Source: Omnitrophica WOR_2 bacterium RIFCSPHIGHO2_02_FULL_50_17 (GTDB lineage Bacteria > Omnitrophota > Gorgyraeia > Zapsychrales > Zapsychraceae). From it: 49,257 nt of DNA. Position 1 is the first letter of the stretch; each line of letters starts with the position of its first letter. The DNA is taken from NCBI GenBank assembly GCA_001805645.1, contig MHGQ01000014.1:1-49257 (forward strand), read 5' to 3'. The notes under the pieces were generated by a model, which saw only the letters and a program-made list of their open reading frames with translations, did no database searches and was not told the origin of the DNA. Shown here in pieces: positions 26,606 through 42,949 of this stretch. A program made the translations under genes and the position numbers.

Positions 26606-27334
26606 TCACATCCTGAATTTTTCCCCCAAGTAAATTTTCTTGGCCTCGGGATCGTTAATCAAAACTTCCGCGGTGCCGGAGATAAGAATCCTGCCGTCGG
26701 CGATAAGATACGCCCTGTCCGTAATGGACAAGGTCTCCCGCACATTATGATCGGTCAAGAGAATCCCCAGCCCCCTCTCTTTCAAACTCTTAATGATCTC
26801 CTGCGCCTCCGCCACCACAATGGGATCGATGCCCGAAAAAGGCTCGTCCAATAAAAGAAATGACGGTTTCGTCACCAGCGCCCGGGTGATTTCCAGACGG
26901 CGCCGTTCCCCGCCGGAGAGTGTATAAGCCTTATTTTTGGCTAAATGAGCGATATTGAGTTCTTCCAAAAGAGACTGCAGCCTCCGCCTTCGCTCGCGCG
27001 GGCCGATCTTTAATATCTCTAAAACAGCCGTGATATTTTCTTCCACGGTCAATTTTCTAAAAATGGACGACTCCTGGGCCAGATAACCCATTCCCAGGCG
27101 GCAGCGCTCATGAATGGATTTATGCGTGATATTCTCATGGTCAAAATAAATTTCCCCTTCATTGGGTTTGACAATGCCGACCGCCATGTAAAAAGTGGTC
27201 GTCTTGCCTGCCCCATTAGGCCCCAGCAACCCCACGATCTCAGAGCGGCCGACCGTGATGCTCAGACCGTCAACGACGCGCCGCGGACCGTACCTCTTAA
27301 CGAGATTCCGGGTCTCCAAAAGCTGTAATGGCAT
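26606..27334 (-). CDS. lptB: Lipopolysaccharide export ABC transporter ATP-binding protein LptB
   Basis: LptB is the cytoplasmic ATPase of the LptB2FG transporter that pulls LPS from the inner membrane into the Lpt bridge. The 242-residue protein has Walker A LLGPNGAGKTTTFYMAVGIV, the family-typical Q-loop region MGYLAQESSIFRKLTVEENI, the signature LSGGERRRLEITRAL and Walker B FLLLDEPFSGIDPIVV, then H-loop LLTDHNVRETL. The ATG at 27334 has GGAAGG upstream and overlaps the LptC-LptA gene by 38 bases. The partner permeases LptF and LptG are not in the window. Confidence 0.97.
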   Translation of the reverse strand: MPLQLLETRNLVKRYGPRRVVDGLSITVGRSEIVGLLGPNGAGKTTTFYMAVGIVKPNEGEIYFDHENITHKSIHERCRLGMGYLAQESSIFRKLTVEENITAVLEILKIGPRERRRRLQSLLEELNIAHLAKNKAYTLSGGERRRLEITRALVTKPSFLLLDEPFSGIDPIVVAEAQEIIKSLKERGLGILLTDHNVRETLSITDRAYLIADGRILISGTAEVLINDPEAKKIYLGEKFRM

Positions 27335-28139
27335 TTTTCCCTTCCGTCATGAGGACAAGCTTGGGCCGTCCTGTGAGGGTCATTTTTTTATCAACGCTGT
27401 CATAAACAGCCGTGTCCGCAAACGATTTGTTTTCCCCGCGGACAATCACCACATGGCCCGTACAGATCATTTTTCTAACCTCTTTCTTTTCTTCGTCAAA
27501 ATAAATTTCCATCCGGTCTGCCTTCAAGGTCTGGTCGTCCTGCACCGCCACGACGTTTTGTTCAAATGTTGCCAAGGACCGCGCCTGGTCAATGACCATG
27601 GGCCCGTCGCAGGTAATCGTGACGGTCTTGGTCGCCTCCGGCTTCGGGTCGGTATCCATCGTGACCGTCACGTCCTCATGAATCTGGGCCGTCTTAAGGC
27701 CGGGCTTCGCCTCCATACCCGTTCCTGTCAACTTAAGTCCCTCATCCGTAATCACCACCGGATCTTTCGTCTTTACAACATCCTTATTGCGATTCCAGTC
27801 CAGAGAGTCTGTCACAAGCTGAGTCCCCCGTTCACTCGTAATCACCACATCTTTCTCAAGGTGCATGTTGCCGCTTGTCTGATCGATGATGCCTGTCTGC
27901 GCCGTCAGATTGACCTTTTCTTCGTCGTAAGACTCGGCATCCACGTTGGAAATCCGTATCTCGCTGCCGGCAATATCGGCCTTGTCTCCATTCACCACCC
28001 ATGCCTTCTCCCCGTCATCCTTATACCCCTGAAGATTAAACCCCTGAAACTGCTGACCGGGTTCGCCGGCATGCAAAAGGAGCGTGTCCGCCTGCGCGAG
28101 AACCAGAATGCCGATGATCAAAAATACCTTTGCCCGCAT
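27297..28139 (-). CDS. LptC-LptA fusion protein for LPS transport
   Basis: A 280-residue exported protein with a hydrophobic N-terminus (about 3-22). The first half matches LptC, with LQGYKDDGEKAWVVNGDKAD, GSEIRISNVDAESYDEEKV and WNRNKDVVKTKDPVVITDEG. The second half looks like LptA/OstA, with LATFEQNVVAVQDDQTLKAD and YFDEEKKEVRKMICTGHVVI. In E. coli these are two proteins that link LptB2FG to the outer-membrane LptDE. Here they are one chain in a single open frame. The ATG at 28139 follows the kdsC stop; a TTG at 28163 is an alternative start. It lies directly before lptB. Confidence 0.82.
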   Translation of the reverse strand: MRAKVFLIIGILVLAQADTLLLHAGEPGQQFQGFNLQGYKDDGEKAWVVNGDKADIAGSEIRISNVDAESYDEEKVNLTAQTGIIDQTSGNMHLEKDVVITSERGTQLVTDSLDWNRNKDVVKTKDPVVITDEGLKLTGTGMEAKPGLKTAQIHEDVTVTMDTDPKPEATKTVTITCDGPMVIDQARSLATFEQNVVAVQDDQTLKADRMEIYFDEEKKEVRKMICTGHVVIVRGENKSFADTAVYDSVDKKMTLTGRPKLVLMTEGKNAITAFGDPESR

Positions 28140-28143
28140 GGAA

Positions 28144-28668
28144 TCAGATAAAGTCCGCAACAATTTTCCCCCACTTTCTCTGCGTCTTGAGGATCAATTC
28201 AACGACCTCTCTTACCGCCCCCCGGCCGCCTCTCTTGGCCGTCACATAATGAACCGTCCCCTTGACCTCGGCGGCCGCCTCAGGAACACTGACACTGAAT
28301 CCCACCCTTTTTAATATAACCAAATCCGGCAGGTCATCGCCGATAAAACAGACCTCTTCGTCCTTTAACTTAAAATCCTCCAAAAGCTGTTGATACGCAT
28401 GAATCTTAGGATACGCATCCTGGTGAATTCTGTCAATTTTTAAATCGTTCGCCCGCGCCGTAACCGCCCCGGCGGCGCGCGCCGAGATAATGGCTGTCTT
28501 GTGCCCGGCCTTCTGAAAGAGCACAAGGCCGAAGCCGTCCTGGACATCGAAAAACTTTGTCTCCCTGCCGTCGCCATCGACAACGATTCTGCCGTCGGTC
28601 AAGACACCGTCGACATCGAGGGCAAGGAGCTTAATCTTCTGAATTTTATCTTTTAATGTCTTGTTCAA
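28144..28668 (-). CDS. kdsC: 3-deoxy-D-manno-octulosonate 8-phosphate phosphatase
   Basis: KdsC, a HAD-superfamily phosphatase, removes phosphate from Kdo-8-P. The 174-residue protein shows the nucleophile motif LLALDVDGVLTDGRIVVDGD, KTAIISARAAGAV (motif II) and VCFIGDDLPDLVILKRVG (motif IV). It has no cap domain, as expected for the family. It starts with TTG at 28668 in a TTGA overlap with the kdsD stop, which points to translational coupling. With kdsD, kdsA and kdsB in the same run, the full route from ribulose-5-phosphate to CMP-Kdo is encoded. Confidence 0.96.
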   Translation of the reverse strand: MNKTLKDKIQKIKLLALDVDGVLTDGRIVVDGDGRETKFFDVQDGFGLVLFQKAGHKTAIISARAAGAVTARANDLKIDRIHQDAYPKIHAYQQLLEDFKLKDEEVCFIGDDLPDLVILKRVGFSVSVPEAAAEVKGTVHYVTAKRGGRGAVREVVELILKTQRKWGKIVADFI

Positions 28669-29624
28669 ACCAATCCCGCCTTCAGGAGATCCTGGACATC
28701 CAAAAGCCCGACAAGCCGCTTGCGGCGGTCCACCACAGGGAGCTCGTCAATCTTTTTTTCCTGCAGGATACGCAAGGCCTCCACGACAAGCTTGTCTTTC
28801 AAAACGGTCACCGGATGCCGGGTCATGACCTCGTGGACCTTCCGCTCCAAAAGACGGGGGTCCGATTCCAGATGCCGCCTTAAATCGCCGTCTGTAAAAA
28901 TGCCGATAAATTTGCCTTGTTTATTAAGAACGCACGCCGAGCCGCACCGGGCATGGGTTATCGCCAAAAGGACATCTTTGACCTTCGCATGCTCCTTGAC
29001 CCTGGGATAATGGGAGCCTTTACGCATAATATCCTCGACCTTAAGCAAGAGCCTGCGCCCCAATGCCCCGCCGGGGTGATAAAAGGCAAAATCCTCTTTC
29101 CGGAATCCTCTGCGGATAATAAGGCATGCCGCCAGGGCATCGCCCATGACGAGCGTTGCCGTGGTGGAGGCCATCGGGGCAAGCCCCAAGGGACAGCCTT
29201 CTTTCTTGACCGAGACATCTAAAACAACATCCACGTGTTTGGCCAGGGTCGATCGGACATTCCCCGTCATGGCAATAATACGGGAACCGATTTTTTTGAT
29301 AAGAGGAAGCAGGCGCTTGATCTCATCCGTCTCGCCGCTGTTGGAGAGGATAATCACCGCGTCATTGCGTGTGACCTGGCCCAAATCCCCATGAACGGCC
29401 TCGGCGCTGTGCATCCACAAGCTGGGCGTTCCCGTCGAAGACAAGGTGGCGGCTATTTTTCGGCCGATGATGCCTGTCTTGCCCATGCCTGTCACAATCA
29501 CGCGGCCTTTGCATTTCACAATAAGATCAACCGCTTTTAAGAAGTCCTTATTGATGCGGGGAGATAACCCCCGGATGGCATGGGCCTCCGTGGCAATCAC
29601 TTCTCTTACCTTCTGAATAATCAT
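28665..29624 (-). CDS. kdsD: D-arabinose 5-phosphate isomerase (KpsF/GutQ family)
   Basis: This enzyme converts ribulose-5-phosphate to arabinose-5-phosphate, the first dedicated step of Kdo synthesis. The 319-residue protein has an N-terminal SIS domain (GRVIVTGMGKTGIIGRKIAA, STGTPSLWMHSAEAVHGDLG, VIILSNSGETDEIKRLLPL). Two CBS domains occupy the C-terminal third (about 205-319), with FIGIFTDGDLRRHLESD and LDVQDLL. The length and domain order match KdsD. The start lies two bases after the kdsA stop. The CBS pair may bind a nucleotide regulator, which is a family-level idea. Confidence 0.95.
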   Translation of the reverse strand: MIIQKVREVIATEAHAIRGLSPRINKDFLKAVDLIVKCKGRVIVTGMGKTGIIGRKIAATLSSTGTPSLWMHSAEAVHGDLGQVTRNDAVIILSNSGETDEIKRLLPLIKKIGSRIIAMTGNVRSTLAKHVDVVLDVSVKKEGCPLGLAPMASTTATLVMGDALAACLIIRRGFRKEDFAFYHPGGALGRRLLLKVEDIMRKGSHYPRVKEHAKVKDVLLAITHARCGSACVLNKQGKFIGIFTDGDLRRHLESDPRLLERKVHEVMTRHPVTVLKDKLVVEALRILQEKKIDELPVVDRRKRLVGLLDVQDLLKAGLV

Positions 29625-29626
29625 GA

Positions 29627-30466
29627 CTATCTCTTACCCCCTCGCTTCACAATTCTGTCGATGGCTATCAAGTCCTTGAGGAGCCCCTTGAGACAATGTA
29701 ATGCCAACATGTTAGGCCCGTCGGAGAGCGCCTTGCGGGGATTGGGATGGACCTCCATGAATATCGCATCGCAGCCGGCGGCGATGGCGCAGCGCGAAAG
29801 AAGCGGGATATACTCGCTCTGTCCGCCTGAGGCTGTGCCCAGTCCCCCGGGCTGCTGGACGCTGTGCGTGGCGTCAAAAATAACCGGATACCCTGTTTGA
29901 CGTAAAATGCTTAAAGAGCGGAAATCGCTCACCAGATTATTGTAACCGAAACTTGTCCCCCGCTCGGTCAGCAGAATCCTTTTATTTCCCGCACTCTCGA
30001 TTTTCTTAACCACGGGGAACATATCCCACGGCGCCAAAAACTGCCCCTTTTTAATATTGACCGCCTTCTGTGTCTTGGCGGCCTCCAGGAGGATATCCGT
30101 CTGCCGGCACAAAAACGCGGGGATTTGAATCACATCCAAAACCTGAGCGGCCATCCCCACCTCCTCGACGCTATGGACATCACTTAAGACCGGCACGCCG
30201 ATTTTCTCCTTCACCTCCTGCAATATCCTCAATCCCTCGACGATACCGGGCCCGCGAAAGGCATGCAGCGATGTCCGGTTGGCCTTATCATAACTGGCCT
30301 TAAAAATAAACGGTATCCTCAACCTCGCCGTCATTTCTTGAATCGAGGCGGCGAGGCGCAAGGCCATGCGTCTATTCTCAATCACACAAGGGCCCGCAAT
30401 CAAGACAAACGGCGCCTCTGCGCCTATTAGAACAGAGCCGATGGAGACAGTCCTGACTCGTTTCAT
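29627..30466 (-). CDS. kdsA: 3-deoxy-8-phosphooctulonate synthase
   Basis: KdsA condenses phosphoenolpyruvate with arabinose-5-phosphate to give Kdo-8-P. The 279-residue protein contains LIAGPCVIENRRMALRLA, FIFKASYDKANRTSLHAFRG, PVLSDVHSVEEVGMAAQVL, IPAFLCRQTDILLEAAKT, and VIFDATHSVQQPGG with a C-terminal MEVHPNPRKALSDGPNML. The Cys of GPC in the first block is a conserved position in metal-dependent KdsA, and other ligands may be present. Its ATG overlaps the kdsB stop by four bases. The gene is complete and typical. Confidence 0.97.
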   Translation of the reverse strand: MKRVRTVSIGSVLIGAEAPFVLIAGPCVIENRRMALRLAASIQEMTARLRIPFIFKASYDKANRTSLHAFRGPGIVEGLRILQEVKEKIGVPVLSDVHSVEEVGMAAQVLDVIQIPAFLCRQTDILLEAAKTQKAVNIKKGQFLAPWDMFPVVKKIESAGNKRILLTERGTSFGYNNLVSDFRSLSILRQTGYPVIFDATHSVQQPGGLGTASGGQSEYIPLLSRCAIAAGCDAIFMEVHPNPRKALSDGPNMLALHCLKGLLKDLIAIDRIVKRGGKR

Positions 30467-31200
30467 TGGAGCAAACCTTCCACCCGAGCCAAATCCTCAG
30501 GCGTATCCACGCCGATAGTTTCCATATCCGTAAGGATAGTTTTTATCCTAACACCGGCCTCCAGCGCCCTCAATTGCTCGAGCTGCTCAGCCCTTTCCAA
30601 TAAAGACTTGGGCATCTGCGTCAATGCCATAAGAAAATCCTTCCTGTAAGCATAAATTCCCAGATGCTTGTAATAACGAATAGTTCCGGTCCCGGCCTTC
30701 TCCCTGTCATAGGGAATGGGGAGGCGTGAAAAATAAATCGCATTTTTTTCTCTATCGATAACGACCTTGACCACATTGGGATTTTCCAATTCCTCCTGAG
30801 TTTCGATTGCCTTAATCACGGTAGCCATCAGACACGCTTCATCCTCGATAAGGGCTTCTGCCAAGTCATCAATCACTTGATGGCGAATCAAAGGCTCGTC
30901 CCCTTGGATATTGATAACAATCTTAGCCGGGCAGTTCTTCACGGCCTCGGCGACACGGTCTGTCCCTGAGGGGTGATCCGGCGATGTCAAAACCGCCTTT
31001 GCCCCAAAGGCTTGGGCCGCTTGAAGGACACGCTCATCGTCGCAGGCAATGAGAACCTCATCCAAAAGGCGGCTCTCTTTTGCGCGTTCCCAGACATGCT
31101 GGATCATCGGTCTATCCTGAATCTTGGCCAGGACCTTGCCCTTAAACCGCGTGGAGGCCCATCGCGCCGGTATGACACCCACAATCCGCATGCTTTTCAC
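30463..31200 (-). CDS. kdsB: 3-deoxy-manno-octulosonate cytidylyltransferase
   Basis: KdsB activates Kdo as CMP-Kdo, the donor for WaaA. The 245-residue protein begins VGVIPARWASTRFKGKVLAK, with DRPMIQHVWERA, LTSPDHPSGTDRVAEAV, VINIQGDEPLIRHQVID and YKHLGIYAYRKDFLMAL. It starts with GTG at 31200, sharing GTGA with the rfaE1 stop and lying just after GGGGGA. The ATG at 31191 is a possible alternative. Placement between the heptose kinase gene and kdsA puts both core-sugar pathways in one transcript. Confidence 0.96.
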   Translation of the reverse strand: MKSMRIVGVIPARWASTRFKGKVLAKIQDRPMIQHVWERAKESRLLDEVLIACDDERVLQAAQAFGAKAVLTSPDHPSGTDRVAEAVKNCPAKIVINIQGDEPLIRHQVIDDLAEALIEDEACLMATVIKAIETQEELENPNVVKVVIDREKNAIYFSRLPIPYDREKAGTGTIRYYKHLGIYAYRKDFLMALTQMPKSLLERAEQLEQLRALEAGVRIKTILTDMETIGVDTPEDLARVEGLLQ

Positions 31201-32228
31201 TTTCCCCCTACAGCTTCCAGAAGTTCCTTCTTGGTGACCGCCACGGCCCCCAATTTTCCCACAACGATACCGGCCGCAAAATTCGCAAGATCAGCCGCTT
31301 CCCTTTTAGTGGCGTCTGCCGTGAGACTCAATGTAAAGGTAGCGATAACCGTATCCCCGGCGCCGGAGACATCAAAAACCTCACGGGCCTTCGTCTCTAT
31401 GCAAACGGGTTTCCTGCCCTTCTCAAAAAGCCGCATGCCGCGCTCTCCGAGCGTAATCAACAGCGACTCTAAATCCAAATATTTCAGCAGCTCACTTCCT
31501 GCTAAGTTGATGTGGTTGTTGTTTTGCAGCCGATCTACGTAAATGCCAAGCTTATCGGCGCTGGGAGAGGTAATCTTGATATTCCGGATTGCATTCTCCG
31601 TCTCCTTCAGGTTGGGCGTAATGGCAGTGACATTGCGGTAATAGCTAAAGTGCTCCACCTTGGGGTCCACAGCGATGATCTTCTTTTTCTCCAAAGCCAA
31701 TTGACGGACGAAATTCACGAGCTCCGGCGTAATCAGCCCTTTGCCGTAGTCGGAGATAATAACAGCATCGTGCGCGTCTATGGTCCTCTTTAAAAAGCTG
31801 CAAATCTTCGGGAAAAGGAGTTTATCGGCAGGACTCTTTGTGTCTTCCCGGTCAATACGCACAATCTGCTGACGCTGGCCGATGACACGCGTTTTGCACA
31901 CCGTGGGCAATTTCCTGTCAACAAAGATGCCTTTTGTATTAATCCCTCTTTTATTCAACTGCCTTTTCAAAATAGGACCGTGGAGATCATGGCCGATCCT
32001 CCCAACGAGCGTGACCGCCGCGGTCAAGCCGCGCAGATTCTGCGCCACATTGGCTGCCCCCCCTGGGGTATAGAAAGATTTTTCCTGGAGAACTACAGGC
32101 ACAGGCGCCTCTGGCGAGATACGCGATACGCTCCCCTGGATATACTGATCCAGCATCACATCCCCGATGACCAGGATATTTTTGCCGGAAAATTTCGAAA
32201 TGATGTGTTCAAAACGGTTCATAATCAT
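31197..32228 (-). CDS. rfaE1: D-glycero-beta-D-manno-heptose-7-phosphate kinase (RfaE1-type, single domain)
   Basis: This PfkB-family kinase phosphorylates heptose-7-phosphate at C1 in ADP-heptose synthesis. The 343-residue protein has LVIGDVMLDQYIQGSVSRIS, EAPVPVVLQ, the sugar-binding FYTPGGAANVAQNLRGL, VIISDYGKGLITPELV and the ATP-site/catalytic DVSGAGDTVIATF. E. coli HldE carries an extra adenylyltransferase domain (RfaE2); it is absent here, so that activity must be encoded elsewhere. The start is the ATG at 32228 or 32222, about 35 bases below a well-formed promoter. It is the first gene of the Kdo/Lpt operon. Confidence 0.94.
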   Translation of the reverse strand: MIMNRFEHIISKFSGKNILVIGDVMLDQYIQGSVSRISPEAPVPVVLQEKSFYTPGGAANVAQNLRGLTAAVTLVGRIGHDLHGPILKRQLNKRGINTKGIFVDRKLPTVCKTRVIGQRQQIVRIDREDTKSPADKLLFPKICSFLKRTIDAHDAVIISDYGKGLITPELVNFVRQLALEKKKIIAVDPKVEHFSYYRNVTAITPNLKETENAIRNIKITSPSADKLGIYVDRLQNNNHINLAGSELLKYLDLESLLITLGERGMRLFEKGRKPVCIETKAREVFDVSGAGDTVIATFTLSLTADATKREAADLANFAAGIVVGKLGAVAVTKKELLEAVGGK

Positions 32229-32267: not shown

Positions 32268-32296
32268 ATTTTAACACAGTTTAAATAGAGAGTCAA
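32268..32296 (-). promoter_or_regulatory. Sigma-70-like promoter for the rfaE1-kds-lpt operon
   Basis: On the minus strand TTGACT (32296-32291) is spaced exactly 17 bases from TAAAAT (32273-32268). Each hexamer is one base from consensus. The predicted start lies near 32261, about 33 bases before the rfaE1 ATG. The -35 falls inside the last codons of the upstream glycosyltransferase gene, and the -10 overlaps its stop. It would give the Kdo, heptose and Lpt genes their own transcript. Confidence 0.65.
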
Positions 32297-33341
32297 CAGC
32301 TTCCAGAACCGCCTGGGTCGGAATGGCTTCCAAATACTTGGGGTCAACCGCCCCAGCCTTCTTAAAAGAAATCCCCGTATTCAAGGAGACGCTGACCACC
32401 CGCGACTTGCTCCCCAAGGGCTGCCAGCGCTGCGGATTAATGCCGGGTTGATGGCGCGTAAATATCGAAACAACAGGTGCCCCCACTCCCACGGCCAAAT
32501 GCACAGGCCCTGAATCGTTGGATACCAAAAGATCGCAGCGCCTTAACAGAGCCGCGAGCTGACCTGCCGTTGTCTGTCCGGTCAAATCCAGCACAGGGAC
32601 ACGGACATGCGATGTAATATTCCCGGCCATATCCCTCATATCCGATGTCCCGATAAGCACCATCCTGGCTGTATACCGCTCGGCGAGTTGATCGATTAAT
32701 TCAGAGAACCGGTATTCGGGCCATCGCTTAGAAGGGTCACTCGCTCCGGGATGGATGGCGATAAGACGCTCACCGCGGCGGATATTGTTCTGCCGGCAAA
32801 ACTCCTCGGCCCAGTCCTGGGAATCCTGGCCGACAGCCACATACAAATCCTCGGCCAACTCCTCGGCGGATTTCTCAAGAATAGCGCTGGAATCAACCCC
32901 GAGATGACGTAGGACATCCAGACAATATTGGGCCTCATGCCTTTGGCCGTAAGGACGCTCGTCCAAAATCGGAAGGGTGAGTAAAAATCCCATTTTATTA
33001 TTCTTATACCCTATCCGGCAGGGAATCCCTGCCAGGAAACAGGCCAGATTCGTCCGCCTTTTCGTATGGTAAATCACAGCCAGGTCAAAGCGTTTTTTTC
33101 GCAGTATAAAAATAAGCCGGATAAAACCTCTCAAGCCCCGGTGCCTATCTTGACGGTCATCCACAAGCACCTCATCAAGGCAGGGATTGCCCTCGATCAG
33201 TTCACGGGTAGCCGGGGAAACCAAAATAGATATTCTGGCCTGCGGATAAGCCTGACGCAGCACTTTGATGGAAGGCGTGGTCAGGACGACATCGCCCATA
33301 CGGTCAGTGCGCACAATGAGGATATTCTTAAATTTTTTCAT
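32271..33341 (-). CDS. GT9 glycosyltransferase (heptosyltransferase family), copy 1
   Basis: A 356-residue GT-B fold enzyme of family GT9, which transfers ADP-heptose to the LPS core. It begins ILIVRTDRMGDVVLTTPSIK, where MGDVVLTTP is the family's N-terminal motif. The C-terminal domain shows LIAIHPGASDPSKRWPEYRF and LLVSNDSGPVHLAVGVGAPV, with the SNDSGPxHLA donor-binding block. The acceptor is unknown. The gene overlaps the next GT9 stop by four bases (ATGA). It is the last gene of the glycosyltransferase run before rfaE1. Confidence 0.9.
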   Translation of the reverse strand: MKKFKNILIVRTDRMGDVVLTTPSIKVLRQAYPQARISILVSPATRELIEGNPCLDEVLVDDRQDRHRGLRGFIRLIFILRKKRFDLAVIYHTKRRTNLACFLAGIPCRIGYKNNKMGFLLTLPILDERPYGQRHEAQYCLDVLRHLGVDSSAILEKSAEELAEDLYVAVGQDSQDWAEEFCRQNNIRRGERLIAIHPGASDPSKRWPEYRFSELIDQLAERYTARMVLIGTSDMRDMAGNITSHVRVPVLDLTGQTTAGQLAALLRRCDLLVSNDSGPVHLAVGVGAPVVSIFTRHQPGINPQRWQPLGSKSRVVSVSLNTGISFKKAGAVDPKYLEAIPTQAVLEAVDSLFKLC

Positions 33342-34333
33342 GATCTGGAAAAGACAACTTCATCGCCGCAGAGATCAAAGGAATCGAGAACCTCTTGGGC
33401 CGTGATAGCCTCCAGGCAGGTATGCCGCGAGGCCTCTTGGGGATTCTGGCACGCCGGACAAAATTGATCTTTCTTGATGTAACGGCTGTTGGTGCTCCAC
33501 GGCCCGTATTTCCGGGCATCCGTGGGGCCGAAAAGCGCCAGGACGGGCTTATTCAAATAACTGGCCAGATGCATCGGCGCGCTGTCATTGGCAATCGTCA
33601 AGAGAGACCGCCTGATGACCTCGGCTAATTGAACAAGTGTTGTGCGGCCGCATAAATTGATGATAGGGCCTTGGACACCGCTTGCGATCCTCGTCCCCCC
33701 CGCCGCGTCTTTTTCATCGCCGACGAGAACGATCGACAGGGAATATTTCTTTATCAACCGGCCGCAGACTTCGACAAATCCTCGTTCCAGCCATCTCTTG
33801 CTTTGATCCGCCGCCCCCACAGCCACCACCGCATACCTTGGATTCCCGCCCAACTCTTTATCAAAAATACCGCTGACATAAGACTTGTCTTCTTCAGATA
33901 TAAACAAGGCATGGGAGGTCTCGGGTTCACAAGCGTATGCATACACCGTTCTTAACCGATTCAGATGCTTTTGCTTCATAGATATATCCTCTTTGTAACC
34001 GGCGGCAAGGGATGTCCGGTATTTCGGGAAAATCAAGAAAGGAATGGCGGTGTTGCGCAAATCCACCGCACAATCAAAACGTTTCCTGCGTAATGCCATG
34101 ACCCAGGAAATCGTTTTTCGTAAGGGTTGTTTCTTGTCAAAAATATACACCTTATCTAAATACGGATTACCTTGGAGAAGCCCCTCGGCCTTAATCCCCA
34201 CGACAACGGAAATCCGCGCTAAGGGAAAATCGTGCGCCAAGACGTCAATGACCGGAAAGGTCAAAATGACATCGCCGATATTGCTCAGGGAGATGACCAG
34301 GATTTTATGGATTTCGGATTTGTCTGACAACAT
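33338..34333 (-). CDS. GT9 glycosyltransferase (heptosyltransferase family), copy 2
   Basis: A 331-residue GT9 enzyme with VISLSNIGDVILTFPVIDVL at the N-terminus, YAVVAVGAADQSKRWLERGF in the centre and LTIANDSAPMHLASYLNKPV then LALFGPTDARKYGPW at the C-terminus. The end has a cysteine-containing segment (FCPACQNP then HTC), seen in several GT9 proteins. The start at the ATG at 34333 follows AAGGA by eight bases; an ATG at 34342 is also in frame. It overlaps the waaF-like gene by about 29 bases. It differs from copies 1 and 3 throughout, so these are old paralogues rather than a recent duplication. Confidence 0.87.
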   Translation of the reverse strand: MLSDKSEIHKILVISLSNIGDVILTFPVIDVLAHDFPLARISVVVGIKAEGLLQGNPYLDKVYIFDKKQPLRKTISWVMALRRKRFDCAVDLRNTAIPFLIFPKYRTSLAAGYKEDISMKQKHLNRLRTVYAYACEPETSHALFISEEDKSYVSGIFDKELGGNPRYAVVAVGAADQSKRWLERGFVEVCGRLIKKYSLSIVLVGDEKDAAGGTRIASGVQGPIINLCGRTTLVQLAEVIRRSLLTIANDSAPMHLASYLNKPVLALFGPTDARKYGPWSTNSRYIKKDQFCPACQNPQEASRHTCLEAITAQEVLDSFDLCGDEVVFSRS

Positions 34334-35321
34334 CCAGAACATCCTTGACGGTTACCGACTGCATACAGACATTGTCGGGACATTGCAGATAATAACACGG
34401 CTTACGGTTGCATCCGACATCCCTGAAGGAGATAAAGGCACGCCCTTTACCGCGCGGGCCTGTAACTTCCGGCCGGGTCGGGCCGAAAATGCCGATGACA
34501 TCACTCCCCACGCTGCTGGCGATATGCAAGGGGCCTGAGTCGGCGGATATGACAAGATCCGCCCGCCTCATAAGGGCTATCAGTTGTTTTAAATTTATCT
34601 TGCCGGCTAAAACAATCACCCGGCATTTCAATTGCGATGCGATTTCCTCAACGAGCGGGACATCCTGAAGGGCACCGGAAATCACGACCTGCGCCTGAAA
34701 ATCCTCACTCAACCGCTGCGCCAGCAAGATAAAATTGTCCTTAGGCCACCTCTTCAGATTCCAGTTGCCTCCGGGATGGATAACAACAAGAAGGTCGTCC
34801 TCCTTCACGTCATGGGAGAGGAGGATGTCTTTCACCTGCGTCTGGGCATCCGCTGTGACATTCAGCGAGGTGGTGCCGTCCTTGACCGGAATACCGAATG
34901 ACCTCACGACATTCAAATAGTAATCACAGCGGTGAATAGCGTCTGTGGCGGGTGGGATTCTCCGCGTCAAAAAGACGCCACGTCTCTTCGTATCATAGCC
35001 GATGCGCTGCGGAATTCCGGCGCAAAACACCAAAAGCGCCCTTGTCAAAGAGCGGTGCAGGAGAAAGGCGGCATCGAAACGCCTTTTTTTAAGCTCATAG
35101 ATAAACCGCAGTTTGACGAAAGGATTCTTATGCCCTCCCTCTTCGTCATAAAGAATAATCTCATCAATCCCGGGGATACTTTCTAAGACTTCTTGGACCC
35201 GCGGGACGGCCAGACAACTGATGCGCGCCTGAGGATAGGCCTCTTTTAAGGCCTTGAAAACAGGCGATGAGAAAATCACATCCCCTACCCAATTCACATT
35301 AACGACAAGAATTCTTTTCAT
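34305..35321 (-). CDS. waaF: Lipopolysaccharide heptosyltransferase II-like GT9 enzyme
   Basis: The 338-residue protein is the most WaaF-like of the GT9 set. It begins MKRILVVNVNWVGDVIFSSP, close to the NWVGDV pattern of heptosyltransferase II. It has HPGGNWNLKRWPKDNFILLA, VISADSGPLHIASSVGSDVI and IFGPTRPEVTGPRGKGRAF. WaaF adds the second heptose to the inner core. The C-terminal YYLQCPDNVCMQSVTV has a Cys pair. I start at the ATG at 35321; ATG codons at 35324 and 35330 and a TTG at 35339 are also in frame, and no Shine-Dalgarno decides between them. The assignment to WaaF rather than another GT9 is by resemblance. Confidence 0.82.
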   Translation of the reverse strand: MKRILVVNVNWVGDVIFSSPVFKALKEAYPQARISCLAVPRVQEVLESIPGIDEIILYDEEGGHKNPFVKLRFIYELKKRRFDAAFLLHRSLTRALLVFCAGIPQRIGYDTKRRGVFLTRRIPPATDAIHRCDYYLNVVRSFGIPVKDGTTSLNVTADAQTQVKDILLSHDVKEDDLLVVIHPGGNWNLKRWPKDNFILLAQRLSEDFQAQVVISGALQDVPLVEEIASQLKCRVIVLAGKINLKQLIALMRRADLVISADSGPLHIASSVGSDVIGIFGPTRPEVTGPRGKGRAFISFRDVGCNRKPCYYLQCPDNVCMQSVTVKDVLDVVRQIRNP

Positions 35322-36432
35322 CATCTTCATCAGAAACAAACCTGCGATAAAGACTTAAGGTCTTATCAACCATCGTATCTGCGCCATAATGCTGCAGGGC
35401 GAACTCCCGTCCGGCATTTCCCATCTCACGCAAGCGCTTCTCATCCCCTAAAAGCTCCATAAGATCCCTTGCCAATACGGACGGACTTTCCGGCTCGATA
35501 AGGATCCCCGTTTTCCCGTGCTCAATCAAACTCGGGATGCCGCCGACATTCGAGGCAATGACAGGGAGCCCCGCGGCCTGCGCCTCCATGATCGAGAGCC
35601 CTAAGCCTTCTTGGCGGGACGGCATCACAAAGACATCCAAGACCGACAAAAGCTCTGCTGTTTTATTCACAAGAGGACAAAAAAAGACATGCCGCTCCAG
35701 ATGGAATGTCTTGACCATGGCCTTGAGCGTCTTTTCCATTTTCCCTTCACCGGCAATCAACAGTTTTACATCAGGCATTTGGGCAACGACTGTCGGCAGG
35801 GCCGCAATCAAGATGTCCTGCCCCTTAACGTCGGAAAGACGGGCGATGTTGCCGATCACCTGCCCTTCCCCAAGGTGATATTTTCTCCGAAGCTGTCGTT
35901 TCGTCTCCTCATCGGCCGGGGCATAAGCCCTCAGATCCACTCCGCTCTTGATTAAAACCACGCGCCCCTCATCGATGTGGAAATCGCTTACAAGATGATG
36001 GCAAACGGCCTCGCTGATGGCAATCACCGCATCCCCCCAACAAGGAAAAAGCCGCCTGGACAATCGCCCTTGAAAAAAACCATGACAGGTGGAGACATAA
36101 GGCCTGCCGGTCATGCTCTTCAAGAGCTGTCCCATGACCTGGGTGATGCGGGTCTGCGCATGCAGGATATCGATGTGGTGTTGCTCCATATAACGGCGAA
36201 GGCGCGGCAAGACTTTATAAATCCTGAAATCGAGTTCTGATTTTGTCCGGATATCCAGGGATGAGAGCCTTACCCCCAAAGAGGAAAATTCCTCCTCCCG
36301 CCGGCCGCCGCTTGAGACGAGATGAACCTCAATGCCACGCTGCCGCATCCCTTGGGCCAGAGTCAAAAGATAGCTTGTAATCCCGCCGGCATTTAAATGT
36401 GTCGTTAAGAAAAGGACATTCATTCTGCTCAT
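35299..36432 (-). CDS. GT4 family glycosyltransferase
   Basis: A 377-residue GT-B retaining glycosyltransferase of family GT4, which transfers a sugar from a nucleotide donor. It opens VLFLTTHLNAGGITSYLLTL, has HAQTRITQVMGQLLKSMTG and YVSTCHGFFQGRLSRRLFP. The donor site follows as IMEAQAAGLPVIASNVGGIP with the E-x7-E pattern (EGLGLSIMEAQ). Sugar and acceptor are unknown; an LPS core or O-chain role is inferred from the neighbours. Starts at 36432 and 36423 are both possible and neither has a Shine-Dalgarno. A 25-bp palindrome lies directly upstream. Confidence 0.9.
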   Translation of the reverse strand: MSRMNVLFLTTHLNAGGITSYLLTLAQGMRQRGIEVHLVSSGGRREEEFSSLGVRLSSLDIRTKSELDFRIYKVLPRLRRYMEQHHIDILHAQTRITQVMGQLLKSMTGRPYVSTCHGFFQGRLSRRLFPCWGDAVIAISEAVCHHLVSDFHIDEGRVVLIKSGVDLRAYAPADEETKRQLRRKYHLGEGQVIGNIARLSDVKGQDILIAALPTVVAQMPDVKLLIAGEGKMEKTLKAMVKTFHLERHVFFCPLVNKTAELLSVLDVFVMPSRQEGLGLSIMEAQAAGLPVIASNVGGIPSLIEHGKTGILIEPESPSVLARDLMELLGDEKRLREMGNAGREFALQHYGADTMVDKTLSLYRRFVSDEDDEKNSCR

Positions 36433-36471: not shown

Positions 36472-36574
36472 CAGGAATGAAGCCCTACCTGGATACCCCG
36501 ATGCTTGCCCCGTATAAATCCCTTCAGGATTCTACGGGGCTTGCATCGGGTAGTGTAGAAGGCTTCATTTCCTG
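36472..36574. repeat. About 103-base imperfect foldback between two glycosyltransferase genes
   Basis: Four nested stems can be read. 36472-36484 pairs with 36561-36574 (13 pairs, one bulge); 36485-36488 with 36555-36558; 36494-36504 with 36543-36552 (10 pairs, one bulge); and 36507-36514 with 36533-36540 (8 pairs). An inner AATCC/GGATT stem sits in the loop. The outer stem runs into the last codons of the GT4-GT9 gene. It could be a structured 3' end, an inactive small transposable element or an RNA. Together with the palindrome at 36436 it fills the 132-base gap. Confidence 0.65.
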
Positions 36575-38667
36575 TCTTCCATAAATTCCATAACCCTGCC
36601 GGCGACCTCTTCGGGTGATATATCTCTCATGCAGACATGCGTCATCATCGGACACCGCGGCTTGTAACACGGCGCACAGCTTAATTTCTTTTCGAGGATA
36701 ACCATCTTCGGGGCAGGCGGCCTATGCCGTTTGGAGTCCGTCGGGCCAAAAAACGCAATGACGGGAATCCCCATAGCGGCGGCCACATGCATCGGCGCCG
36801 AATCCGGCGTTATATAGACCTTGCATTTTTCTATCAAAACGGCCAGATGCAAGATATCGGTGCGGCCGATAAAAACGGCCGGTTTGGATCTTGTCTTCGA
36901 TAGAAGTTCCTGGCCGCGCCACCGGTCTTTTTCCATCCCCGTAATGAGGACACGGATGTTTTTACCCGCGAGGATATCGCACAGACGAGCCATAGACTCC
37001 AGAAGCCAGTTCTTGGTCTGCCACTTCTGCGAGGCCGCAATATTCATGCCGACGATATTTGTGCTGCTGCCCAGCCATTCGGAATCCAAAAGCTCTCTGA
37101 CATACGCGCGGTCACGGGCAGAAGGCCACAGCTCAAGCCGCATATTTTCGCTGTAAGAAATATCCAAGGTCTTAAGCAGCTGAAACTGATGTTCGACCGG
37201 AGGAAGATCGTCGCGGTATGTCCTTAAAGGGTGGCTGAGAAGGCTTCCCCATTTCCCGTTTTTGAAGCCATAACTCTCCCTCGGGAAACTCAAAAACGCC
37301 AAAAGGTGGCTCTTGCGGCTGTTTTGAAAATCAATAATTTTGTCAAAACGGTACTTTCGCAGCTTGTGTGAAAACAAAATCGTCCGGATCCATCCCTTCT
37401 GCTTATGATGGGCATCATAGATGATAAGACCGTCCACATAGGGACAATTCTGCAGGACATGGCGCGATTCCTTGCCCACAAGACAATAAATTTTCGCCTG
37501 AGGGAATCTCTCGCGCAGGGCCTTCAGGGAAGGTGTGACCAAGACAACATCTCCCAGCGAGCTCATCTTAATCACAAGAATATTGAGTGTGTTCAGCAGT
37601 TCCTCATAAACCTGGATCGTCCTTAAGGCCATCTGATCCAGAGTGAATTTTTCTTTCAATTTCTTGCGCCCCGCCTCCACCAACTGCCCCGCCAGCTGCC
37701 GGTCTTTAAGGACACGCATCACTTCCCTGGCCATGGCATCGGTATCCTTAGGCAATACCAAGAGACCGGTTTTTCCGTCATCGATAATATCCACCACCCC
37801 GCCGACGCTGGTAGCAACAACCGGCACACCCGCGGCCTGGGCCTCCAGGATCACCCTGCCGAAGGCCTCCTCGGTTATGGTCGAAAGGACAAGCACGTCG
37901 CTGTGAGATAAAAGCTGCGGGATATCCCGCCGGTTTCCTAAAAATTCGACGCGCCCCTGAAGGCCTGACTGACGCACCAAGACCTCGAGCTCGCGTTTAT
38001 AAGAGGCCTTGGCAGGCGGGGCATCGCCGATAACCCAGATACGGATATTCGGCATCACCCGCGCCACTTTTGCCATAGACTTTAAAAAAAAGGTGTGCCC
38101 TTTTAAAGGGGTAATACGTCCGATGATCGCAATCGTGTAGAATGATTTTCCCGGCGTCTCCTCTCTAGGAACGTTAAATTTTTCCATGTCGATACTGCGG
38201 GGAATGCACCGAAGAGATCCGGAAGAGACGCCAAAATCGTCCCTCATGTGCCGTCCGATCGCCTCGCTGGGGACAATCACAAGCTTAGGCCATCCCATCA
38301 CCTGGCTAAAGAGCCGGTTATTATAATAGCCGTGGCATGTCGTGATGAAAGCCGCCTTCGTTGTACGGCAGGCGAAATAGGCAATCCAGGCGGGCACCCG
38401 CGAGCGGGCATGAACCACATCTACCCCCTCATCTTGAATAATCCTGCGCAGCGCCTTGACCATGCGAAACATCCCCCCTAACGACTTCTTATGGACGGGG
38501 AGGGTGTAATGCTTCGTTCCCGACTGCTCCAATAAGGGGACCAGCTCTCCGCCGTGGGAGACGACAATAGAGGTGTGCCCGTGTCTTGTCAGATATTGGG
38601 CAAAGTCAACGGTTCCTGTCTCAACGCCGCCTACATTCAACTCAGGGAGTATCTGCAAAACTTTCAT
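36565..38667 (-). CDS. GT4-GT9 two-domain glycosyltransferase fusion
   Basis: One open frame of 700 residues joins two complete enzymes. Residues 1 to about 360 are a GT4 enzyme, with LQILPELNVGGVETGTVDFA, ITTCHGYYNNRLFSQVMGW and TEEAFGRVILEAQAAGVPVV. From about 361 a GT9 heptosyltransferase domain begins NILVIKMSSLGDVVLVTPSL, and continues with VGMNIAASQKWQTKNWLLES and ITPDSAPMHVAAAMGIPVIA. Separate GT4 and GT9 genes lie next to it. The joint looks like a lost stop between tandem genes, with no linker. It may add two sugars in sequence. The ATG at 38667 lacks a clear ribosome binding site. Confidence 0.88.
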   Translation of the reverse strand: MKVLQILPELNVGGVETGTVDFAQYLTRHGHTSIVVSHGGELVPLLEQSGTKHYTLPVHKKSLGGMFRMVKALRRIIQDEGVDVVHARSRVPAWIAYFACRTTKAAFITTCHGYYNNRLFSQVMGWPKLVIVPSEAIGRHMRDDFGVSSGSLRCIPRSIDMEKFNVPREETPGKSFYTIAIIGRITPLKGHTFFLKSMAKVARVMPNIRIWVIGDAPPAKASYKRELEVLVRQSGLQGRVEFLGNRRDIPQLLSHSDVLVLSTITEEAFGRVILEAQAAGVPVVATSVGGVVDIIDDGKTGLLVLPKDTDAMAREVMRVLKDRQLAGQLVEAGRKKLKEKFTLDQMALRTIQVYEELLNTLNILVIKMSSLGDVVLVTPSLKALRERFPQAKIYCLVGKESRHVLQNCPYVDGLIIYDAHHKQKGWIRTILFSHKLRKYRFDKIIDFQNSRKSHLLAFLSFPRESYGFKNGKWGSLLSHPLRTYRDDLPPVEHQFQLLKTLDISYSENMRLELWPSARDRAYVRELLDSEWLGSSTNIVGMNIAASQKWQTKNWLLESMARLCDILAGKNIRVLITGMEKDRWRGQELLSKTRSKPAVFIGRTDILHLAVLIEKCKVYITPDSAPMHVAAAMGIPVIAFFGPTDSKRHRPPAPKMVILEKKLSCAPCYKPRCPMMTHVCMRDISPEEVAGRVMEFMEDRK

Positions 38668-38686: not shown

Positions 38687-40666
38687 TTAAATCACCCGGC
38701 GCATGGCCTCAAGGATAACCGTCCGATCATCCAGAGTTTTGGTCCGAATCTTATTCTTGGCGACATCATAAACGGCATGGCCGATATCCTTGACATTGGT
38801 AGAGAGTACATACCCTTGCGCATTCAGACCATCGATAAATTTCTGATGTTTGTTCCCTTGCAACGGCGTTTTCTTGCGGCATTCCGGCGAAAAGACAATC
38901 GTGTTTTTCCCTGAACTGGCCGCCTCCGAGATCATCGAGATACTGTCGCCCGAGACCACATGGATATCGGACAACCCTAAAATACCCCCCACGGCCTCCG
39001 TCACGTCATCCTGACCGGCCAATATCAGCAGACGGCAGGAAGGATGTCTTTTTAACATTTTCTGCAAAAGCTGTTCAAGATACGGAGGTGTCCGTCGGGA
39101 GGTCGTGGCGAGGATATCGGCATTAATTTCCCGCGCCACCTCGGTAATCTGGTGGACCAAGGTCTTTATCTGCTGTTCGCTTAAAAAAACGTTTTTGGCA
39201 TCGCCTCCAATAAAAAGGCCGATCTTGGCCTTAAGGCTGTCCTGCAGGTGAGAATACCGCAGCAACAAGAGACGGGACTGCTCTTCTTGATACTCTTTCG
39301 TAATAAGATTAGGGGCGGCCAAAGTCGAAACAACATTGCCGGCGGCCCTCCCTGCGGGCAAGGCCTCATGCCGCGGCAAGATAACAAGGTCGAATCTGCG
39401 ATAACCCAAAATCCCCGGTTTAAGGATAACGATACTTTTGGCATGATAATCCCGTGCCAGAAAGTTGTTTATACCGGCAATGGAAGAGCCGCAGGAAATA
39501 ATAAAGTCTGCTTTGATTTTGACGGCCTGTGCGAAGGAATCTTTTGTCAGAAAATATTTCAAGAGCGCCAAACGTCCCTGATACAAAAAGGGATGCCCTA
39601 TAAAACTCAGCAATGCAAATGCGCGGCGCACCAGCGCACTCCTGAAAACGACAGGAACCGTCTGAACCGTTGCACGGATATTCCTCTCGGACAAGGCCTT
39701 CTCAAGTATTTGGGCCGCGGCCTGAGACTGCCGCAGGTGCCCGGTCCTGCCGTCAGAGAGAACGGCAATACTGGACTCGTCGGAATATTTCCAGATTTTA
39801 TAAAACCACATATACTCCGACGGGTATTGACGGATATAATCCTCCATGATTTTTGTGATACGCGACAGGTTAGAGACAACATCCTGCTCCATATTGCCGG
39901 TTTGGATGAGTTCGAACGGCTGATGAACGACCATCCGGTGGCCCCCGTTACTCTGGCGGTGGATGACGCTGAAGCAAAGAGGCACGCCCCATTTCAATCC
40001 CATCCGCACCGCCCCCACCGACAGGGAGGCCCTGCGGCCGAAAAAAGGCACCAACACCCCGTCTTTCCCTCCCTGATCCACAACCATCCCAATGACCTCA
40101 TTATTCTTGAGGCCCCGGATAAAGTCCCGCGTCCCCATGCCGCGCGAGAGGACAACATACCCCCCGCAGGAACGGTAAGAATTCAAAAGTTCATCCAGAC
40201 GCGAATACTTAGACTGCGGCCGGACAATGACCTTGTACGGCAGTCCCATCATCGCACAGGAGAGACTGGCCAGCTCCCAGCTGCCAAAATGCATGGCGAG
40301 CATAATAGCCCCCTTACCCTTCTTGAGGCATCCGGCCAAATGCTCTTCTCCTTCTACCGTAATCAATTTCTTGAATCGATCAGGGGTAATGAGGGGCATA
40401 CGGAAAAGATCGATAAAATTCTGGCCATAATTTTTAAACAGATTCTTTGTGATTCTCTTGATCTCGCCGGGCGTCTTCTCGTGGGCAAAAGCCCGCCGGA
40501 GATTGGCATAAGCGAGAGTCTTATGCTTCATATCGCCGTAATAAGCAAGGATGCCGATGAGCCTGCCTATACTTAAGGCTAATCCCAACGGCACGCCGCG
40601 CACAATTTTGCCTAGAATATTAATGCTGTGAAAAATGAGTGATTCTTTGAATGAATTCACCTTCAT
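38687..40666 (-). CDS. LpxL-type acyltransferase fused to an ELM1 (DUF1022) domain
   Basis: A 659-residue protein in one frame. Residues 1 to about 295 match the LpxL/HtrB lauroyl acyltransferase family, which adds a secondary acyl chain to Kdo-lipid A. The catalytic HX4E motif is in MHFGSWELAS (H126, E131), followed by GMVVDQGGKDGVLVPFFGR. From about 299 to the end is an ELM1/DUF1022 domain, with IAVLSDGRTGHLRQSQAAA, DFIISCGSSIAGINNFLA, LFIGGDAKNVFLS and VVSGDSISMISEAASSGKN. Its GT-like fold and role in bacteria are not established. The gene overlaps lpxK by 47 bases, tying both to lipid A. Confidence 0.86.
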   Translation of the reverse strand: MKVNSFKESLIFHSINILGKIVRGVPLGLALSIGRLIGILAYYGDMKHKTLAYANLRRAFAHEKTPGEIKRITKNLFKNYGQNFIDLFRMPLITPDRFKKLITVEGEEHLAGCLKKGKGAIMLAMHFGSWELASLSCAMMGLPYKVIVRPQSKYSRLDELLNSYRSCGGYVVLSRGMGTRDFIRGLKNNEVIGMVVDQGGKDGVLVPFFGRRASLSVGAVRMGLKWGVPLCFSVIHRQSNGGHRMVVHQPFELIQTGNMEQDVVSNLSRITKIMEDYIRQYPSEYMWFYKIWKYSDESSIAVLSDGRTGHLRQSQAAAQILEKALSERNIRATVQTVPVVFRSALVRRAFALLSFIGHPFLYQGRLALLKYFLTKDSFAQAVKIKADFIISCGSSIAGINNFLARDYHAKSIVILKPGILGYRRFDLVILPRHEALPAGRAAGNVVSTLAAPNLITKEYQEEQSRLLLLRYSHLQDSLKAKIGLFIGGDAKNVFLSEQQIKTLVHQITEVAREINADILATTSRRTPPYLEQLLQKMLKRHPSCRLLILAGQDDVTEAVGGILGLSDIHVVSGDSISMISEAASSGKNTIVFSPECRKKTPLQGNKHQKFIDGLNAQGYVLSTNVKDIGHAVYDVAKNKIRTKTLDDRTVILEAMRRVI

Positions 40667-41690
40667 CGCCCTCCAACGCTATTTGAATCTTCAAATAAAA
40701 CAACCTTATCGTGCGGTCAAAGATATCCAGAAAGGGTATCAATTTCACCGCATCTTTTTCTGTAGTGACAAGGGTGTCTATATGATTCTCATGGCAACGC
40801 TCTACGAGCCGGCGGATATCCTGGTTATTATAACTGTAATGATCCATAAAAGCGACGGGCTCCTTTACACGCGCGCCCAGATCCGTCAAAATTTTTTGAA
40901 AGGACGCCGGATCGCCGATGCCGCAGAAAGAACAGATCTCTTTTCCCTTTAAAAAAGATAAATCCTCCGCCCCATCCGAGCGCACATCCCTCAAGCCGAC
41001 GGGGTGATGACGCGCCCAGACAATCATTTGATCCGGACAAAGGACTGCCAGACGTGTCTTGATCTCTTGGATGGTATCTCCACCGGCAAGGTTCGTCTTT
41101 GTAACCACAATCATATCGGCCCTCTTCAAGGCGTTCAAAGGCTCCCGCAAGATGCCCCTCGGAATCAAACAACCGTTGCCCCACGGATTGACAGCATCCA
41201 GGACAACGATATCCATATCCCTCGCCAATCGCCAATGCTGGAATCCATCATCCAGGATAAAAATGTCCGCCGCATGACCTTTAAGGAAATCCTGCGCATT
41301 CTGAAAACGGTTGGGGCCGACAAGGACAGGCACATCAGCCAAAGCCCTTCTGATCATCGCCGCCTCATCGCCTTCCAGACGCGAAAACGCTCCCCCTTTA
41401 TCCATATATCCACGCGTCAAGACAACAGGTTTGAAATTTTTGTCCTTAAGAATCTGCGCGAGGAACATCACAAGAGGCGTCTTGCCCGACCCTCCCACGG
41501 TGAGATTCCCGACACTGATGACAGGCCTGTGGAGCCGCCGGCGCCGGAAAATACCCTTTTTATAAAAAAACACAATCCTCTTTACCGCCGCCCCGTAAAC
41601 ACAGGACAAAACCCATAGGAAAAAAATTCCTATCCCTGCCAGAGGGCCGTTCACCTGATCCGTTGCCATGCGATATAAAATCCTCTTCAT
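40620..41690 (-). CDS. lpxK: Tetraacyldisaccharide 4'-kinase
   Basis: LpxK phosphorylates the lipid A precursor at the 4' position to give lipid IVA. The 356-residue protein has an N-terminal membrane-associated helix (about 14-36). The P-loop VISVGNLTVGGSGKTPLVMF and the family blocks VVLTRGYMDKGG and DIFILDDGFQHWRLARDMDI follow. IVVLDAVNPWGNGCLIPRG, FCGIGDPASFQKIL and LVTTEKDAVKL complete the call. The length agrees with the family. Its ATG overlaps the waaA stop by four bases, and its end runs 47 bases into the acyltransferase fusion. Confidence 0.96.
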   Translation of the reverse strand: MKRILYRMATDQVNGPLAGIGIFFLWVLSCVYGAAVKRIVFFYKKGIFRRRRLHRPVISVGNLTVGGSGKTPLVMFLAQILKDKNFKPVVLTRGYMDKGGAFSRLEGDEAAMIRRALADVPVLVGPNRFQNAQDFLKGHAADIFILDDGFQHWRLARDMDIVVLDAVNPWGNGCLIPRGILREPLNALKRADMIVVTKTNLAGGDTIQEIKTRLAVLCPDQMIVWARHHPVGLRDVRSDGAEDLSFLKGKEICSFCGIGDPASFQKILTDLGARVKEPVAFMDHYSYNNQDIRRLVERCHENHIDTLVTTEKDAVKLIPFLDIFDRTIRLFYLKIQIALEGDEGEFIQRITHFSQH

Positions 41691-42949
41691 GCCTTTAATA
41701 CCCCAGAGATGAGCTCAAGAGTTTTTTGTGTTGCCCCCTGACAGATCTTAATCATCTCCCGCGCCGACGCCCCCGCCGCCTCGGCCCGGGAGGGCGATGC
41801 CAAAAATTCCCGCATCGCCTGCCACAATTCTTCCTCCTGCCTCACCTGCACGAGGGCCCCTGTCCTTAAAAAAATCCGCACCACATCTTTGAAATTCTGC
41901 GTCCAGGGGCCGACAAACGTGGGTTTCCCAAAATAAAGCGGTTCAATCATATTCTGCCCGCCGCCTACTTTGAACGTCTTTCCGATAAAAACAACCTCGG
42001 CCAGACTATAAAAGACACGCAGATAACCTATGCTGTCAACGATCAGAACGACTTGGGCGTCTCCTTTTGTATCACGGTATTGCGATAATCTCAACGGGAG
42101 AAATCCTTTTTGCTGCACCAAACGCGCGATATCTCCGGTGCGTTCTATGTGCCGGGGGACAATCACCAGCCGCAACCGGGGAAATTCGCCCCGCAGCCTC
42201 GTATAAGTCTCCATAACGATCTCTTCTTCCCCGGGATGCGTGCTTCCGGCAACCAAGAGACGGTCACCTTCCTCAAACCCGAAATCCTTTTTTGCGACCG
42301 GCGCCGTTTCAGGCAAACTATCAAATTTGAGATTACCCGCCACATGCACTTTAGAGGGTTCTGCTCCTAAGCGTATAACCCTCTCTGCATCCAATGGGCT
42401 TTGCATGCAAAATACCGAGATACAATCCAACACCCTTTTGACAAAACCCGAAATCCTTTTATACCCCTCAAATGCCCTGTCGGAGATGCGGCCGTTGACC
42501 TGAATAATGGGGACGCCCTCTTTTTGAAGACACCTGTACAAATTAGGCCATATTTCCGTCTCGGCGCAAATATACATTTTCGGCCGAATAGCCCTGATAT
42601 AGCGTCGCACGACCCAGCTAAAATCCAAGGGGGCGTAAATGACGCGGCAGATGTCTTTCAATTTGGTCTGTGCGAGCCTTTGGCCCGTCGGCGTTACGGT
42701 GGAGAGAATAAAGGTGTGCCCTGAAAACTTTTCTTTCATCCGGAGGATCAAATCCTCCACCGCCAATACCTCTCCGACGCTGACGGCGTGAAACCAAATA
42801 ACGTTCCGGCAGGCACAGGCCTCACGCAACGCGGAAAGGGAAAGACCTAAGCGCATCCAGAATCCCCTGTGCCATTTCCCCCTCACCCCCAGATACGGCA
42901 GATACAGGAGGGCGCATAAGAAAAATATCGCATCATACACAATAAACAC
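41687..42949 (-). CDS. waaA: 3-deoxy-D-manno-octulosonic acid transferase
   Basis: WaaA (KdtA) transfers Kdo from CMP-Kdo to lipid IVA at the inner membrane. The 420-residue protein has an N-terminal membrane anchor (about 5-20), then VIWFHAVSVGEVLAVEDLIL, FILSTVTPTGQRLAQTKL, ICAETEIWPNLYRCLQKEGV and IQVNGRISDRAFEGY. LLVAGSTHPGEEEIVMETY and FGKPTFVGPWTQNFKDVVRI follow. The start is GTG at 42949, six bases after AAAGG. Whether one, two or more Kdo residues are added cannot be read from the sequence. The four kds genes at 28144-31200 make its donor. Confidence 0.96.
   Translation of the reverse strand: MFIVYDAIFFLCALLYLPYLGVRGKWHRGFWMRLGLSLSALREACACRNVIWFHAVSVGEVLAVEDLILRMKEKFSGHTFILSTVTPTGQRLAQTKLKDICRVIYAPLDFSWVVRRYIRAIRPKMYICAETEIWPNLYRCLQKEGVPIIQVNGRISDRAFEGYKRISGFVKRVLDCISVFCMQSPLDAERVIRLGAEPSKVHVAGNLKFDSLPETAPVAKKDFGFEEGDRLLVAGSTHPGEEEIVMETYTRLRGEFPRLRLVIVPRHIERTGDIARLVQQKGFLPLRLSQYRDTKGDAQVVLIVDSIGYLRVFYSLAEVVFIGKTFKVGGGQNMIEPLYFGKPTFVGPWTQNFKDVVRIFLRTGALVQVRQEEELWQAMREFLASPSRAEAAGASAREMIKICQGATQKTLELISGVLKA

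Follow-up and report, generated by a model that had tools for sequence, protein, structure and literature searches.

A single open frame at positions 38687..40666 on the minus strand of the window (the whole stretch of 49,257 nucleotides analysed here) encodes a protein of 659 aa, in which an LpxL-type acyltransferase is followed by an ELM1 domain with no linker between them. In the Pfam search the first half (residues 1-295; 39782..40666, minus strand) matches PF03279 over residues 15-293 with E 2.6e-41 and 142 bits against a cut-off of 22.3, while no NCBIfam equivalog cut-off is reached by it; the second half (residues 297-659; 38690..39778, minus strand) matches PF06258 over residues 309-624 with E 1.9e-42 and 145.9 bits against a cut-off of 27. 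Thus the sequence-only reading, which had proposed one uninterrupted frame joining an LpxL-type enzyme with H126 and E131 to an ELM1-like part from about residue 299, is borne out by the domain search of the full protein: both matches lie far above the curated cut-offs, and residues 299-659 were assigned to no different family. The start at 40666 is supported by a ribosome-binding-like GGAGG (40670..40674, minus strand) located 3 bases 5′ of the ATG, and the gene shares 47 bases with the 3′ end of lpxK. Two more stand-alone LpxL-like (PF03279) genes are present in the same genome, on contig 6 (L169) and contig 56 (L170); one of the two adjoins an MGDG-synthase-like glycosyltransferase gene and the other is found near a gene for apolipoprotein N-acyltransferase.

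The fusion was expected to sit between lpxK and a second fusion gene encoding glycosyltransferase, and this is the arrangement observed, all genes listed below being transcribed from the minus strand. Upstream are located waaA for Kdo transferase (41687..42949) and lpxK (40620..41690), both identified by profile match, and directly downstream lies a gene for a 700-aa GT4:GT9 fusion glycosyltransferase (36565..38667), defined by Pfam and conserved across Omnitrophota. Then follow, also assigned by Pfam, a GT4 glycosyltransferase (35299..36432) and three GT9 proteins of the heptosyltransferase family (34305..35339, 33338..34342 and 32271..33341). The run goes on with heptose 7-phosphate kinase (RfaE domain I; 31197..32228), kdsB for CMP-Kdo synthetase, the enzyme making the proposed donor (30463..31200), and kdsA for Kdo-8-phosphate synthase (29627..30466), all three by profile match, and with kdsD for arabinose-5-phosphate isomerase (28665..29624; above the KpsF/GutQ subfamily cut-off) and kdsC for Kdo-8-phosphate phosphatase (28144..28668; above the TIGR01670 cut-off), which together constitute the route to CMP-Kdo. 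The order topA-xerC-waaA-lpxK-[LpxL:ELM1]-[GT4:GT9]-GT4-GT9-GT9-GT9 is retained in almost all long loci. Several peculiarities of this region are recorded separately: a 318-aa open frame of the opposite strand (27195..28151, plus strand) without NCBIfam match separates kdsC from the trigger factor gene in the window, an Omnitrophota genome (L057, 3504-5945) has waaA and lpxK merged into an open frame of 814 aa, and two GT9 genes are combined into an open frame of 611 aa in another locus (L064, 12134-13966).

The ELM1 domain was detected in 357 of 384 Omnitrophota genomes sampled (237/249 of good genomes) and in 29 of the 32 genomes of the family to which the window's genome, an Omnitrophota MAG to judge by its relatives, belongs; in the phylum sample, frames of at least 540 aa hold 141 of the 150 ELM1 matches listed. 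Since the fusion recurs over Omnitrophota down to ~42% identity at whole-protein length, it reflects neither chance nor an assembly error, and the most divergent members examined are mostly frames of ~600 aa flanked by lpxK on the upstream side and by the GT4:GT9 gene on the downstream side. No case of two split genes in place of the fusion was found among the Omnitrophota genomes examined, and an artefact of assembly is also rejected on the ground that in most ELM1-less genomes the locus is missing altogether or interrupted by the end of a contig. Among 20 genomes that lack an ELM1 match, 14 gave no match to lpxK as well; four of the six having lpxK (G194, G345, G210 and G016) have a contig that terminates within the fusion or within lpxK, and in the two others (G252 and G334) the region likewise seems to border on a contig end. 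As for short frames, that of G100 is truncated where its contig stops and the others looked at turned out to be extra stand-alone copies. Loss of LPS was considered as a reason for the missing fusion and accounts for it only partly, because 12 of the 14 lpxK-less genomes keep an above-cut-off kdsB, so that most absences are probably gaps. The near-complete genome G110, assembled in two contigs, looks like a true loss: ELM1, lpxK and an above-cut-off kdsB are all missing from it, two stand-alone PF03279 proteins are present, and it possibly represents Omnitrophota without Kdo-lipid A. Two fusions (L157 of G107 and L155 of G093) have a seemingly shortened ELM1 half, and in L157 a match to the Alpha-E domain comes after it; this may be due to a rearrangement or to contigs wrongly joined in assembly.

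Stand-alone ELM1 copies are extra genes in a few Omnitrophota genomes and are of different kinds. In the tree, L071-L073 are canonical ELM1 proteins grouping with alphaproteobacterial ones, and L082, L166 and L167 fall inside the fused clade, having probably lost the acyltransferase half. One more stand-alone ELM1 of the fusion-derived type (L168) is encoded next to genes for an ABC transporter and a methyltransferase. The existence of the three copies inside the fused clade implies that the half can exist alone and thus leaves some room for the assumption that the full protein is cut post-translationally into two independent enzymes, the join meaning co-expression only. We hold such processing to be very improbable, given that in the predicted structures the two folds are only ~2 residues apart (the final LpxL motif reaches about residue 295, and residue 297 opens the first ELM1 strand), that the full-length AlphaFold2 model is well formed (pLDDT 87.6, pTM 0.83) and that split copies in place are absent from the genomes examined. 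In this model the first half matches LpxM structures 5kn7 and 5knk and PatA. Residues 296-659 modelled by AlphaFold2 (pLDDT 89.9, pTM 0.86) adopt, according to Foldseek, a confidently predicted GT-B fold, their top PDB matches being the GT-B enzymes MGD1, TreT, UDP-GlcNAc 2-epimerase, BshA and MshA. The suggestion of a role for the ELM1 domain in lipid A or core sugar synthesis, with a GT-B-like transferase as a possible form, is supported by the predicted fold, the conserved Kdo/lipid A/inner-core run and the motifs of KdoT described below, and the ELM1 half is very probably a GT-B glycosyltransferase of the inner core.

Another part of the initial view, namely that bacterial ELM1 proteins are uncharacterised, has to be abandoned, because KdoT was described in 2024-2025 (PMC10936431, PMC12856342); for the same reason the idea of a function for the ELM1 domain itself is not new. 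This ELM1-like protein of Acinetobacter baumannii (GtrOC1, the gene name of an Acinetobacter outer-core locus), the relative known in most detail, uses CMP-Kdo as the donor to add Kdo to Kdo2-lipid IVA (VanOtterloo et al., PMC12856342, following PMC10936431), and the NCBI family name already reads "ELM1/GtrOC1 family putative glycosyltransferase". Mutants in its SRRT motif demonstrated that R180 matters, and none of D8, H13, H109 and D110 is individually essential (PMC12856342). A. baumannii records of the kdoT gene were recovered by tblastn of plasmid records with the ELM1 half from the window; in one of them (L104) kdoT immediately follows a gene for branched-chain aminotransferase of the ilvE type, and residues D8, H13, H109, D110 and S178-T181 of its product agree with the published numbering (PMC12856342). 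A Pseudomonas plasmid, pPNP1, encodes a 780-aa protein (L106, 3612-5954) with an ELM1 domain at residues 441-723 placed after ~440 residues without a Pfam match.

Conservation of motifs was scored on the alignment of 64 distinct Omnitrophota fusions, their positions in the window being given for the minus strand. In the catalytic HX4E motif HFGSWE (residues 126-131; 40274..40291) H126, G128, W130 and E131 are invariant (64/64). Within the ELM1 half, DGRTGH (residues 305-310; 39737..39754) aligns with D8...H13 of KdoT, D305, G309 and H310 being the same in all 64 fusions, while PRHE (residues 431-434; 39365..39376) is the counterpart of KdoT P107-D110 containing H109/D110, where H433 never varies and the next residue is D in 58 fusions and E in 6, including that of the window. 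SRRT (residues 523-526; 39089..39100), equivalent to KdoT S178-T181 with the donor-site arginines R179/R180 (PMC12856342), is present without exception (64/64), and G487-G488, S575, S577, M578 and E581 are invariant as well. Even in the most divergent fused members compared (n=15), DxxxGHxxQ as well as PxHD and SRRT were found in 15/15. Such constancy of putative active-site residues, seen in all 64 fusions and again in the divergent set, speaks against the view that the ELM1 half has no catalytic role and serves as a scaffold bringing LpxL together with other LPS enzymes, for which a precedent may be seen in plant ELM1 recruiting the dynamin-related protein DRP3A (as cited in PMC10936431). 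Taking into account also that the relative KdoT is a proven transferase (PMC12856342), a purely docking role is hardly to be expected.

The choice of donor is a matter of finer distinction. SRRT alone is common to most ELM1 proteins and is thus a mark of the family and not of the donor. The His of DGxxGH (KdoT H13), reported as unconserved outside Acinetobacter, is invariant in Omnitrophota fusions and replaced by D, N, T, M or L in other proteobacterial ELM1 proteins fetched, and the combination of DGxxGH, PxHD and SRRT is absent from these proteins. Profile alignment of the fusion ELM1 with KdoT (E 1.2e-21) extends from the N-terminal motif onward with all motifs aligned, and stand-alone canonical ELM1 gives a somewhat better profile score than KdoT over the C-terminal part. 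The fusion ELM1 is ~23% identical overall to KdoT and not less similar to other ELM1 proteins; a closer overall identity to KdoT was looked for and not found, this value being unable to discriminate. In the tree KdoT is placed with Omnitrophota fusions with support 98/96, yet its branch is very long (3.08 changes per column), which makes this position unsure. Judged by motifs and setting, the designation of the fusion as KdoT-like is supported, whereas its membership with KdoT by descent remains unsure, as identity does not separate KdoT and the tree rests on this long branch. No BLASTP similarity to GnaT, the partner of KdoT, was seen in the two neighbouring GT4 proteins compared.

An active inner-core GT-B enzyme using a donor other than CMP-Kdo, for instance a different sugar activated by CMP, UDP or ADP, with acylation joined to a different core step, would fit the fold and the gene order equally well; in line with it, the low identity to KdoT is shared with ELM1 proteins whose donors are not known, and elsewhere ELM1 genes have neighbours coding for glycosyltransferases of other kinds, GT92 in Rhizobiaceae being one example. 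We nevertheless regard this alternative as less likely, since the three motifs are invariant in the fusion and missing together from the other proteobacterial ELM1 proteins fetched, and since kds genes belong to the same run, kdsB lying within ~9-14 kb of the fusion in many other genomes (coordinates compared by eye). The presence of kdsB as such is no test of the donor, because 105 of the 107 genomes sampled possess it. CMP-Kdo is favoured as the probable donor of the ELM1 half.

The best reading of the locus, and one that we consider reasonably probable, is that the fusion encodes a conserved bifunctional LpxL-KdoT enzyme of Kdo-lipid A assembly acting on Kdo-lipid IVA. Such an inner-membrane protein would transfer a secondary acyl chain to Kdo-lipid IVA by its N-terminal half via the HX4E mechanism of LpxL/LpxM, while the C-terminal half, as an inverting GT-B transferase of the KdoT type holding CMP-Kdo by the SRRT arginines, would add Kdo onto the Kdo set by WaaA on the same lipid acceptor. 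Its place in the pathway would be after LpxK and WaaA and before heptosyltransferases, and joining of the halves may let one protein hold the same lipid through two successive steps; like the donor sugar, the site at which Kdo is attached and the linkage between both steps are deduced here. The literature searched yielded no LPS structure for Omnitrophota, no paper describing an ELM1-acyltransferase fusion or Kdo-lipid A of this phylum, and none for DUF1022. New here are the phylum-wide fusion and the KdoT-like motifs outside Proteobacteria. ELM1, an obscure name that came from plant mitochondria, becomes tied to lipid A far from Proteobacteria by a gene found beside lpxK and waaA in almost every Omnitrophota genome. 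If the ELM1 half is indeed a Kdo transferase, addition of Kdo by a non-WaaA enzyme is far more widespread than the literature suggests, and predictions that can be put to the test become possible for the LPS of a phylum with hardly any cultured members; the fusion would also provide structural biologists with a ready-made LpxL-KdoT protein for studying how one substrate serves both secondary acylation and Kdo transfer. More tentatively, one might imagine that throughout the phylum the fused acyltransferase-Kdo transferase passes one lipid through both steps, that Kdo transfer split between WaaA and KdoT is old and widespread rather than an oddity of Acinetobacter or Rickettsia, and that ELM1 proteins, including plant ones, originated from Kdo-type glycosyltransferases.

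Among known systems, LpxL/LpxM (PF03279; PDB 5kn7, 5knk) resemble the first half of the fusion over the whole domain, in the HX4E motif and in fold, the fusion differing by the C-terminal GT-B domain that it carries. WaaA (KdtA) is a GT-B enzyme of the Kdo-lipid A pathway with CMP-Kdo as donor; it thus shares the fold type with the ELM1 half but belongs to a different family and is encoded by a separate gene, the second one upstream from the fusion. Canonical bacterial ELM1 proteins (PF06258) are of the same family and in most cases have SRRT, yet unlike the fusion they are devoid of the His of DGxxGH, and those standing alone in Omnitrophota score ~300 bits on the Pfam model versus mostly 95-190 for fusions. 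Plant ELM1, engaged in mitochondrial fission through recruitment of DRP3A (as cited in PMC10936431), falls into the same Pfam family as the fusion half. KdoT has in common with the fusion the ELM1 family, GT-B, the DGxxGH, PxHD, SRRT and [DE]SxSM motifs and the location within an LPS/LOS core gene set; unlike the 659-aa fusion, KdoT is a stand-alone protein of 296 aa, and ~50 extra residues are inserted in the fusion between the N-terminal and SRRT motifs.
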